NCBI GenBank assembly: GCA_016212295.1 | Contig: JACRGO010000119.1 | Location: 1 to 9,373, forward strand | Direction of reading: 5' to 3' | Origin: Nitrospinota bacterium | GTDB lineage: Bacteria; Nitrospinota; Nitrospinia; JACRGO01 | Length of the DNA stretch: 9,373 bases | Shown: positions 245 to 9,373 of the stretch, piece by piece | Layout of the letters: each line of letters opens with the position of its first letter | Numbering within the stretch: the stretch's first letter is position 1 | Notes under the pieces: model-generated | What the model saw: the letters and a program-made list of their open reading frames with translations, nothing else | The model's database searches: none | Told to the model about the DNA's origin: nothing | Translations under genes and position numbers: made by a program

Positions 245-1270
245 TTATCTATGTTCAAAACTTTTTATTCTCAGCCCATCCAATTGGGATTCAGAGATCG
301 CTTGCGCCATAAGCGATTCCTCGCTCCCCTCCCCTCCCCTGCTGAATTTCACTTCAACCGCTTCGTCCTTAGGGGCGGAGCTGTATCTCACAACAATCCG
401 GGATATAAGCGGCGCCCATGAGGCGCTGTCCGTCCCGCGCGCAAGACCAAATGGACCATTGTGCCCGGCCAAGATGAATTTTAAATCGCCCGGCTCAACA
501 CTTTTTTCCAGCGCGGTGTTTTCAGTCTCGTCTCTCCCTAAAATCACCCGGCAATGGTCGGAAAGCCTGAAATGGCGGCCTATCCTGAGAAGACGGGCGT
601 CCTGGACACGAAAAACACCGGAATGGTCCAAAAGGTCCTTTACCTTCCCGGCGAACCCCTTTTCCGTGAGGAGGCATCCGCCGGAGGAACATGGAAAGTC
701 CTCGATATGGTACTCCCCAGCCAACCGGATTTGTTCTTTCCTGGACCTGCCGTTTATCTTCAGAAGCTTTTCCCTGTCCACTATCCCTTCCTTTTCGGGA
801 ATGGTCTCCGGCATGAGCCGCGCGCAGAGCGGCCTCAGGATGTACCCTTCCAGTCCGCTCTCCTTTTCAATTACGCGCATGGTGTCCCTTCGCTGCGACA
901 TGGGCCGTTGTCCAATCACTTCGCCGGTAAAAACGAAGGACGCGCCTACCTCCCGCATGTATTCGCCCGCCTTTTTGAACATCATGATTCTGCAATCGAT
1001 GCACGGATTCAGCGCGCGTCCATAGCCATGCCTGGGCTTCCTCAACATCTCCAGATATTCTTCGCCGTGGTAGAGACATTTGATCTTCAGGCCGAATTCA
1101 TTGGATACCTTCACCGCCTCGCTTTTACACCCGGCGTTTTTCGAGGTGCAGGCGCAAAAGGGGCTCATGAAATTCAATGCTATTACCTCTATTCCCTGCT
1201 CCTGTATCACTTTAACGGCCAGGGTGCTGTCCAGGCCGCCGGACAGAAGGCCTATCGCTTTTGTGCTCAA
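245..1270 (-). CDS. PP-loop ATPase, ThiI/MnmA-like, with NFACT-R (DUF814)-like C-terminus
   Basis: A 341-residue cytoplasmic protein of the adenine-nucleotide alpha-hydrolase (PP-loop) superfamily. The ATP pyrophosphatase loop SGGLDS is at residues 10-15, directly after the first beta strand, as in tRNA-thiolating enzymes such as ThiI and MnmA. Cysteines cluster as C39-x-C41, C48, NPC90-x-x-C93, C194 and C199. C90/C93 and C194/C199 lie near places where thiolation enzymes carry catalytic or metal-binding cysteines. From about residue 225 the chain has an RNA-binding-like look (GRHFRLSDHCRVILGRDE, then TEN), resembling NFACT-R/DUF814. Likely role: ATP-dependent adenylation and sulfur transfer to an RNA base; the exact base cannot be read from sequence. 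Start: TTG at 1270-1268, chosen because a strong AAGGAG lies 9 bases upstream and the PP-loop is at the normal N-terminal distance. It is transcribed away from leuC and has no partner gene here. The fold is secure; the specific substrate is not. Confidence 0.82.
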   Translation of the reverse strand: MSTKAIGLLSGGLDSTLAVKVIQEQGIEVIALNFMSPFCACTSKNAGCKSEAVKVSNEFGLKIKCLYHGEEYLEMLRKPRHGYGRALNPCIDCRIMMFKKAGEYMREVGASFVFTGEVIGQRPMSQRRDTMRVIEKESGLEGYILRPLCARLMPETIPEKEGIVDREKLLKINGRSRKEQIRLAGEYHIEDFPCSSGGCLLTEKGFAGKVKDLLDHSGVFRVQDARLLRIGRHFRLSDHCRVILGRDETENTALEKSVEPGDLKFILAGHNGPFGLARGTDSASWAPLISRIVVRYSSAPKDEAVEVKFSRGGEGSEESLMAQAISESQLDGLRIKSFEHR

Positions 1271-7313: not shown

Positions 7314-7413
7314 TTCAAGAACATTATTAAGGAATGCAGGAGAAGAGAAAGAGCTATTTTAAAAATGAAGAAAATTTATACCTGTTAAACTCCCCGATTG
7401 CAAAGAGGTAACA
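7314..7413 (+). other. Gap with a 25-codon frame before the toxin remnant
   Basis: A short frame with ATG at 7334 and stop at 7409-7411 (MQEKRKSYFKNEENLYLLNS at its start) ends 2 bases before the ATG of the toxin remnant. Its position is where an antitoxin would sit, but 25 residues are too few to assign, and AAGGA is too close to its ATG to act well. It may be the tail of a deleted antitoxin gene or chance. Confidence 0.2.
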
Positions 7414-7560
7414 ATGAATTTAGGGGATGTCGATGAGGCATATACCTGGTACGAAGATCGCAGACCTGGCTTGGGAGAAGATTTTCTATGCTGCAATGAT
7501 AATCAATCTTTTGCAACTTCTAATTACCATCAACTGAAAAAACCGCCGTTTACTCTTTAA
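7414..7560 (+). pseudogene. ParE/RelE-type toxin remnant, truncated
   Basis: A 48-codon frame. Its first 25 residues contain VDEAYTWYEDRRPGLGEDFL, the alpha-helical N-terminal signature of ParE/RelE-family toxins (D-x-A-x-x-W-Y-E-x-x-x-P-G-L-G). A normal ParE is about 95-105 residues: the first beta strand before the helix is missing, and after FL the sequence no longer looks like the family and soon stops. AGAGGT (7404-7409) lies 4 bases before the ATG, so the start region may survive although the product cannot fold as a toxin. The following frame belongs to a different family, which points to deletions that joined pieces of a gene cluster. Confidence 0.6.
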
Positions 7561-7673
7561 GTCCAATTGGATTAATGGGAGGCTCTTTGCCGCAGCGCCA
7601 ACAAAGACTTGTTGAAGCATGGGCGGAGTTGCATCAAGAAGAACTAATTGAGGACTGGGAAAGACTTCAATAA
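7524..7673 (+). pseudogene. DUF4160 C-terminal remnant
   Basis: This frame opens just after a stop at 7521-7523 and encodes 49 residues with no proper start (first ATG at 7575). The text AVYSLSPIGLMGGSLPQRQQ, then LVEAWAELHQEELIEDWE, matches the C-terminal half of DUF4160 proteins as I know them (a Tyr-rich strand, G-x-L-P-x-R, then W-A-x-L-H-x-x-E-L-x-x-x-W). The N-terminal half with its usual HFH region is gone. DUF4160 genes usually precede DUF2442 genes in a toxin-antitoxin-like pair, and a DUF2442 start does follow at 7720, which supports the call. Confidence 0.6.
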
Positions 7674-7719
7674 GGAAGCCCCCCTTTTAAAATTGATCCC
7701 CTTAAATAAGGAGAGAAAA

Positions 7720-7809
7720 ATGAACCACCCAATTTATCGTGTCGTGTCCTTTGAAATCATTGGAGACTATAAAATACGTATTATTATTGATCACTCTTGT
7801 CCAAAATAG
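7720..7809 (+). pseudogene. DUF2442 gene interrupted by the insertion sequence
   Basis: ATG 7720 has an excellent AAGGAG (7708-7713) 6 bases upstream. The first 24 codons (HPIYRVVSFEIIGDYKIRII, then ID) match the N-terminus of DUF2442 proteins, normally about 80-100 residues. From 7798 the frame enters the left inverted repeat of the insertion sequence and stops at TAG 7807-7809, inside the repeat. About three quarters of the gene is lost; the rest does not reappear after the right end of the element. With DUF4160 just upstream this was the second gene of a DUF4160-DUF2442 pair. Confidence 0.7.
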
Positions 7810-7820
7810 AAATTGATTAA
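7798..7820 (+). repeat. Left inverted repeat of the IS4-family element
   Basis: 23 bases beginning TGTCCAAAATAGAA. Pairs with 9173-9195 with 3 mismatches, all in the inner 9 bases. It supplies the stop codon that ends the DUF2442 frame. Confidence 0.85.
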
Positions 7821-7823
7821 AGT

Positions 7824-7892
7824 GCCCTCCTGTAGGAATGTGTTATAGAATGTAGTTGCAAACCATCATTCTATTACAAACCTAAGGAGGGC
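7824..7892 (+). promoter_or_regulatory. Long 5' hairpin hiding the transposase ribosome-binding site
   Basis: The 5' arm 7824-7852 (GCCCTCCT, G bulge, TAGG ... AGAATG) pairs with the 3' arm 7867-7892 (CATTCT ... CCTA-AGGAGGGC). About 21-22 base pairs form, the outer 8 being perfect, and the Shine-Dalgarno AAGGAGG (7884-7890), 8 bases before ATG 7899, lies within the 3' arm. An extended -10-like box (TGTTATAGA, 7841-7849) inside the 5' arm could start a native transcript near 7856, lacking the 5' arm and leaving the site free. Transcripts entering from outside would fold and block translation. Confidence 0.6.
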
Positions 7893-7898
7893 AAGACT

Positions 7899-9095
7899 AT
7901 GGTAAAGGTATCCAGTTTGTTTAGTCAATTGCTTCAGCATTTTCCCCGGTCCGAATTTCAGCAATTGGTAAAAAAGCATCAGGCGGAATATAAATCTAAA
8001 GGTTTTTCATGCTGGACCCAGTTTGTGTCCATGCTATTCTGCCATATGGCGCATGCGGATTCTCTTCGTGAAATATGCGGAGGTTTGGCCTGTTGTATAG
8101 GAAAACTCAGGCATTTGGGCATACTGAAAAGTCCCAACAAATCCACCCTGTCTTATGCAAACGAGCATCGACCTGCGTCTTTATATGAAGAATTGTTTTG
8201 GATCGTTATGAATCGTTTACGCTCAAATGGAGGCATGGGGTATAGGAAAAAGCAGTTTCGTTTCAAAAACAAACTCCTCAGCTTCGATTCCACCACGATA
8301 TCACTTTGCCTCAGCCTCTTTCCTTGGGCGCAATTTCGCCGGTCCAAAGGCGGAGTCAAAGTTCACGTTCTCTTGGATCACGACGATTATATGCCTTCTT
8401 TTGTCCAGATTACTGAAGCGAAACATCATGACCATACCGTGGCTCGCCTTTTAAATCTTACCCTTGGGTCTATTGTAGCTTTTGACCGGGCTTACAACGA
8501 CTACCCGCTTTTCGGCCAATGGACTGATATGGGTGTTTATTTCGTTACCAGAATGAAAGAAAATGCGGTCTTCAAAGTTACTGAAGAACGCAAAATTCCC
8601 CAAAACCGCTCTATTTTGGCGGACCAGATCATTAGCCTTACCGGCATTAAAGCTGAAGAACGGTGTCCGCATCTCCTCAGGCGTGTGGTGGTCCGGGACG
8701 AAGTCAATGGCCGTGAAATTGTCCTGCTGACTAATCACCTGGAATTCGGCTCCAGCACTATTGCTTCCATCTACAAAGATCGCTGGGAAATCGAGATTTT
8801 CTTTAAAACCCTTAAACAGCATCTGAAAGTTAAAACCTTTATTGGAACAAGTGAAAACGCATTGCGCATTCAAATTTGGACAGCCTTAATAACGCTGATG
8901 CCGCTGAAATACCTCCATCACCTGTCAAAGGCCCAATGGTCCATGTCAAATCTTGCCGCCATGTTAAGGTTGAATCTCTTTAGTTACAGGGACTTAGTGG
9001 AGTGGCTCCACGACCCCTTTGGAAAACCGCCAATAACACCAGAAAATTCACCGCAATTTCAATTCCCGGGTTTTGGACAGGCAACTTATGGATAA
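7899..9095 (+). CDS. IS4-family DDE transposase
   Basis: A full-length transposase of 398 residues. The N-terminal 70 residues (FSQLLQHFPRSEFQQLVKKH, then FSCWTQFVSMLF and DSLREICGGL) are a DUF4372-type DNA-binding region. The RNase H-like catalytic core follows: D130 in LLSFDST, D196 in IVAFDRAYNDY, and E299 within the IS4 signature Y292-(2)-R295-(3)-E299-(6)-K306 (YKDRWEIEIFFKTLK). It cuts and joins the element ends. No frameshift or stop interrupts it and all catalytic residues are present, so it may be active. A strong AAGGAGG lies 8 bases upstream but is in a hairpin. It is the only gene in the element. Confidence 0.93.
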   Translation: MVKVSSLFSQLLQHFPRSEFQQLVKKHQAEYKSKGFSCWTQFVSMLFCHMAHADSLREICGGLACCIGKLRHLGILKSPNKSTLSYANEHRPASLYEELFWIVMNRLRSNGGMGYRKKQFRFKNKLLSFDSTTISLCLSLFPWAQFRRSKGGVKVHVLLDHDDYMPSFVQITEAKHHDHTVARLLNLTLGSIVAFDRAYNDYPLFGQWTDMGVYFVTRMKENAVFKVTEERKIPQNRSILADQIISLTGIKAEERCPHLLRRVVVRDEVNGREIVLLTNHLEFGSSTIASIYKDRWEIEIFFKTLKQHLKVKTFIGTSENALRIQIWTALITLMPLKYLHHLSKAQWSMSNLAAMLRLNLFSYRDLVEWLHDPFGKPPITPENSPQFQFPGFGQATYG

Positions 9096-9136
9096 AAAAG
9101 TAAAATAGGAAACCTTAACCTGGAAATTTGAATTTT

Positions 9137-9147
9137 CTTGTCCAAAA
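9137..9147 (+). repeat. Subterminal direct copy of the IS left-end sequence
   Basis: CTTGTCCAAAA is identical to 7796-7806 at the left end of the element, in the same orientation, about 50 bases inside the right end. It could be a second transposase-binding site or a leftover of an earlier end. Confidence 0.4.
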
Positions 9148-9172
9148 ACGTTGAAAATAAAGGGACAATAAT

Positions 9173-9195
9173 ATTAAAAAATTCTATTTTGGACA
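9173..9195 (-). repeat. Right inverted repeat of the IS4-family element
   Basis: Read on the minus strand it begins TGTCCAAAATAGAA, identical to the outer 14 bases of the left repeat, and matches 20 of 23 positions overall. Confidence 0.85.
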
Positions 9196-9373
9196 GCAAT
9201 GTTACTTCCCATATTTTTTCGTTCCTTTGTGCCTTTGGTTTGCTCCAGCTCTGCTGGATTGTTCTATTCAATTGAAACGTATTGAAATTGGTAATTGTTT
9301 ATTCGCCAATTAGCTGCGCTATGGCGTGTGAAAGTAATTGAGCACGCGAAACATAGCGGTATCGGTAAGTGTG
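9196..9373. other. Right flank of the IS, no gene assigned
   Basis: The DUF2442 frame does not resume here. At the edge a plus-strand frame opens at TTG 9295 (FIRQLAALWRVKVIEHAKHS) and a minus-strand frame runs in from the edge to a stop at 9301-9299 (YVSRAQLLSHAIAQLIGE); neither can be assigned. ATGGCGTGTGA at 9321-9331 also occurs at 105-115. The AAAGGCACAAAGGAACG-like text on the minus strand near 9210-9235 looks like ordinary degenerate spacer sequence. Confidence 0.4.

Follow-up and report, generated by a model that had tools for sequence, protein, structure and literature searches.

In IS10 (Tn10), RNA that enters from outside the element forms a structure covering the transposase ribosome site, a control known as fold-back inhibition, and the native promoter is internal and yields RNA without the upstream arm. 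In IS50 (Tn5), a hairpin in read-through RNA reduces transposase translation, and the transposase and the inhibitor are made from separate starts. IS10 also has a mapped antisense RNA, RNA-OUT, and is subject to Hfq control (PMC5006887). In ISPpu9 of Pseudomonas putida, a structure in the 5' untranslated region (UTR) hides the ribosome-binding site (RBS) in the native mRNA, and the antisense RNA Asr9 opens it (PMC8450116). In the main text of the 2008 study of the IS4 family (PMC2266710), we found no such leader structure, and a literature search of limited coverage returned no earlier description of leaders in the DUF4372 group and no paper pairing DUF4372 with a transposase. The class of mechanism is already known from IS10 and IS50, and any novelty for the DUF4372 group is bounded by that limited search.

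The element compared with these systems here lies in the window (the whole stretch of 9,373 nucleotides that was analyzed), where the following features were assigned.

7792 to 9201, + strand: IS4-family insertion sequence of 1410 bp with imperfect terminal repeats CACTCTTGTCCAAAATAG / CATTGCTGTCCAAAATAG (identity to other copies; 17-nt inverted repeat).
7823 to 7836, + strand: outer part of the 5' arm (TGCCCTCCT, bulged G, TAGG), from the fold and from complementarity retained in relatives.
7841 to 7851, + strand: putative -10 box of the transposase promoter (TGTTATAGAAT), within the 5' arm, from position-specific -10 enrichment in relatives.
7858 to 7860, + strand: apical loop, from the fold, with the predicted transcript start (~7858) placed 7 nt past the -10 box.
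7881 to 7893, + strand: outer part of the 3' arm, with the Shine-Dalgarno (SD) sequence AAGGAGG at 7884 to 7890, from the fold and the RBS opening cost.
7899 to 9095, + strand: transposase gene, 398 aa, with DUF4372, DDE_Tnp_1, and the Y-R-E-K motif YKDRWEIEIFFKTLK (translation; Pfam; NCBIfam).

Three more partial copies in the same genome together define both ends of the element: the left end at 7792 is the exact onset of identity to copies L003 and L005, and the right end at 9201 is the last position of identity to copy L002. The transposase scored 254.3 bits against the NCBIfam model transpos_IS4_1 (cutoff, 115), as expected of an IS4-type DDE transposase; Pfam matched DUF4372 and DDE_Tnp_1; and the translation carries Y-KD-R-WEI-E-IFFKTL-K, the YREK motif of the published IS4-family feature list (PMC2266710). 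The NCBIfam score, DDE_Tnp_1, and the YREK motif bear out the family assignment made in an earlier, sequence-only reading of this DNA. The motif, the 5'-CA ends, and the length of ~1.4 kb are shared with the IS4-family subgroups of De Palmenaer et al. (2008; PMC2266710). With IS10, the element has in common membership in the IS4 family in the broad sense, an outside-RNA structure over the ribosome site, and an internal native promoter (here predicted), but the IS10 transposase belongs to another IS4 subgroup, and IS10 adds RNA-OUT and Hfq. For an IS10-like antisense promoter, a promoter scan gave only a minus-strand consensus match at 7928 to 7899, at chance level. The read-through hairpin is shared with IS50, its effect on translation being predicted in the window element, whereas separate starts for transposase and inhibitor set IS50 apart. 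An RBS hidden by 5' UTR secondary structure is shared with ISPpu9, the main alternative type, which differs in having that structure in its native mRNA, with Asr9 to open it.

The left flank ATTATTGAT (7783 to 7791) and the right flank TTACTTCCC (9202 to 9210) do not match and share no target duplication, which in the IS4 family measures ~8 to 13 bp. The 9 bp of TTACTTCCC, the right flank in the window, directly precede the left end of copy L005. Because of this correspondence and the mismatch of the flanks, the flanks in the window contig (C69) probably come from two copies that assembly or recombination has joined. Insertion into a DUF2442 gene, as proposed in the sequence-only reading, is not upheld from this contig because of that probable join, and the 27-aa fragment at 7721 had zero Pfam matches. 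By eye, the part of the left flank before this fragment (7416 to 7720) resembles fragments of a RelE/ParE-type toxin gene and of another small gene. Elsewhere in the window (245 to 1270, minus strand), a ThiI-like domain is fused to an NFACT-R_2 RNA-binding domain.

The fold of 7800 to 7900, a check that the sequence-only reading had called for, reached -31.5 kcal/mol versus -15.5 +/- 3.2 kcal/mol in 200 dinucleotide shuffles, none of which was as stable (z of -5.07). The resulting hairpin spans 7823 to 7893, within one base of the position first given for it. Its outer stem pairs TGCCCTCCT (7823 to 7831) with AGGAGGGCA (7885 to 7893); the pairing is perfect, as had been claimed, but extends over 9 bp instead of 8. 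Inward of this stem lie a bulged G (7832) and four pairs (7833 to 7836 with 7881 to 7884), and an inner stem (7845 to 7852 with 7867 to 7874) contains the -10-like box. All seven bases of AAGGAGG are paired and fall within the 3' arm, where they had been placed before; the outer part of that arm comprises 13 paired bases, and the ATG follows at 7899. An Rfam search gave matches at chance level only.

Relatives were gathered from species genomes and plasmids, and a search of viral contigs gave zero relatives. The hosts include Desulfobacterales, Desulfovibrionales, Magnetococcales, Bacteroidota (Persicobacter and Chitinophagaceae), Clostridium, Synergistaceae, and Candidatus Fermentibacteria, as well as Acinetobacter (ISAbe18-like) and Sinorhizobium (ISRm16-like). 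With starts set by tblastn together with the choice of SD and start codon, 88 distinct leaders were obtained; in most of these, the SD, the start codon, or both fall within a hairpin, in relatives down to ~30% protein identity. The arms are often unrelated in sequence yet complementary, as can be seen by setting the window pair TGCCCTCCT/AGGAGGGCA beside L013 (ACGCCTCCGG/CCGGAGGCGT), L100 (GGCTCGGA/TCCGAGCC), L121 (ATAGCCAGTGTGA/TCACACTGGCTAT), and L087 (GCATGCCCCGTC/GACGGGGCATGC).

Pairing was assessed with a register-free test of the best helix between positions -105 to -38 and -28 to +4, in which the upstream part alone was shuffled with dinucleotides kept. The native arms scored at a P value of <=0.05 in 32 of 78 nonredundant leaders and at <=0.01 in 16 of 78; the combined P value of 5e-22 overstates independence because the elements share ancestry. 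When arms were swapped among 41 elements of at least 38% identity, the mean score fell from 22.2 for an element's own arms to 15.3. An earlier ensemble test, in which the whole upstream region was shuffled, was weaker: in 37 of 81 elements, no more than 2 of 50 shuffles equalled or exceeded the observed value. A whole-leader MAFFT alignment was dropped since it misaligned the arms, and the outer stems were therefore aligned manually, with the SD as anchor. In the resulting 17-element alignment, 85.6% of cells pair and 7 of 9 pairs are changed on both sides; the hand-set register favors pairing, and its controls are confined to shuffles, slides, and the register-free test. Doubly changed cells numbered 23 versus 5.7 +/- 1.9 in shuffles and 0 to 5 in registers slid by 1 to 3. 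The computation thus establishes both the structure and its conservation through compensatory change, and the covariation that the sequence-only reading had named as the point on which its proposal could fail is present. Since relatives in several phyla retain the hairpin despite changed sequence, it is probably a real brake.

The energetic consequence of the upstream arm was computed as the cost of opening positions -16 to +3 in 31 elements. The mean predicted cost, 14.1 kcal/mol for the long RNA, drops to 6.0 kcal/mol for the predicted native RNA and to 6.6 kcal/mol after shuffling of the upstream part. Starting the RNA at the predicted site lowers the cost in 30 of the 31 elements; in L109 and L100, truncation is predicted to help little or not at all. 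In the window, the cost falls from 21.6 kcal/mol when the 5' arm is present to 6.9 kcal/mol when it is absent, so that the structure over the ribosome site is lost in computation when the arm is removed.

Where the native transcript would start is suggested by the position of the -10-like box. The earlier claim of such a box in the 5' arm is confirmed in the window, where the best hexamer, TAGAAT at 7846 to 7851, matches at five of six positions, and in relatives, where the box recurs and in some cases has the consensus form. The window hexamer alone is not significant (P value of 0.08), and an alternative, exact TGnTATAGA reading at 7841 to 7849 is weaker at its last position. No -35 accompanies the window box, and a consensus scan of 7400 to 7900 gave zero plus-strand sigma-70 sites. 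Among relatives, when the stretch from the arm start to the SD is scanned, the best-matching -10-like hexamer sits mostly 16 to 26 nt past the arm start; it is the consensus TATAAT in L099, L100, L105, and L109, preceded by TGn in three of these four, and no good -10 stands at the expected place in L008, L089, L061, and L011. A hexamer-only test in fixed windows found -10 enrichment solely at 12 to 30 nt downstream of the arm start (Fisher P value of 0.0012), with none in the windows before (P value of 0.42) or after (P value of 1.0). When leaders were anchored on the hexamer, the TG ahead, the -10 itself, and an A-rich loop behind were conserved and the 5' arm held almost no conserved information; selection biases the hexamer and TG columns of this alignment but not those downstream. 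A TTnGCnnAAAAA-like stretch is conserved after the -10 box, near the predicted start (for example, in L099, L100, L105, L109, and L013), and may act as a start sequence or enhance translation.

We propose, with a probability of about 0.75, that the hairpin distinguishes outside from native transcripts in the manner of IS10 and IS50. RNA from a promoter outside the element would contain both arms and fold so as to hide the SD and, in many relatives, the start codon too, so that transposase would not be made. The element's own weak promoter, with its -10 within the 5' arm, would yield RNA that starts in the loop, lacks the 5' arm, and leaves the ribosome site open; the outcome would be low transposase output independent of the insertion site. 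As in IS10 and IS50, the ribosome site of the transposase lies under the hairpin computed for read-through RNA, here with compensatory change. The -10 enrichment is found where it would be expected if the native promoter lay within the 5' arm or past it. The read-through protection first put forward is partly supported: it retains its hairpin, overlap with the ribosome site, covariation, and recurrent -10 box and loses its example of an insertion into DUF2442.

The hairpin might instead be a general brake present in every transposase RNA, the native start lying upstream of it or at the element end and the structure being opened by a small RNA, a protein, or temperature. The weak consensus of the window promoter fits such a brake, as does the precedent of ISPpu9, whose RBS-blocking 5' UTR is opened by antisense RNA (PMC8450116). 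A distant DUF4372 clade points the same way: it has a compact hairpin near the ATG, within the final 60 nt of the leader (of 27 leaders tested, 14 at a P value of <=0.05 and 7 at <=0.01), and its native RNA may carry both arms. In that clade (L112, L117, L127, L128, L059, L042, and related leaders), the hairpin covers the SD or ATG, and a conserved CGAyTTGAA element that is perhaps part of a promoter lies upstream of it. However, the mere 31 bp between the element end (7792) and the 5' arm (7823) leave too little room in the element for a complete -35/-10 promoter starting RNA upstream of the arm, and the -10 enrichment lies inside the arm with none upstream. Because the end is so near and the -10 is so placed, discrimination between native and outside RNA is favored over an arrangement of the ISPpu9 type, and we consider a general brake unlikely.

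Readings in which RNA translation plays no part fare worse. Insertion sequence ends often have subterminal sites, and the inverted repeat, close to the left end, could work as DNA, as a transposase or host-factor site or a cruciform, its overlap with the ribosome site being accidental. The arm sequences are unrelated between relatives, however, and so are ill suited to one common recognition site, and the 3' arm nevertheless keeps its place over the SD or start codon; we regard this explanation as very improbable and rejected it. We also rejected a terminator or attenuator that would halt incoming transcription, which we rate lower still: the leader does contain a strong stem-loop, but a run of T after the 3' arm is missing (AGACTATG), and the hairpin is not among the calls of a terminator scan.

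A broader form of the proposed discrimination between native and outside RNA is more tentative, and we give it slightly less than an even chance: a promoter within one arm of an RBS hairpin may be an old and near-universal device of a large DUF4372 lineage of the IS4 family in several phyla, with arms that drift under the constraint of pairing while promoter function holds the -10 and the loop. Thorough work on read-through protection is limited to a few elements, and these leaders offer many divergent natural examples, across which the constrained parts can be seen, namely the base pairing, the -10, and the placement of the structure over the SD or start codon. An observation on a single case thereby becomes a testable rule at the level of the family, and the results suggest that such leaders could help in recognizing intact, autonomous copies.
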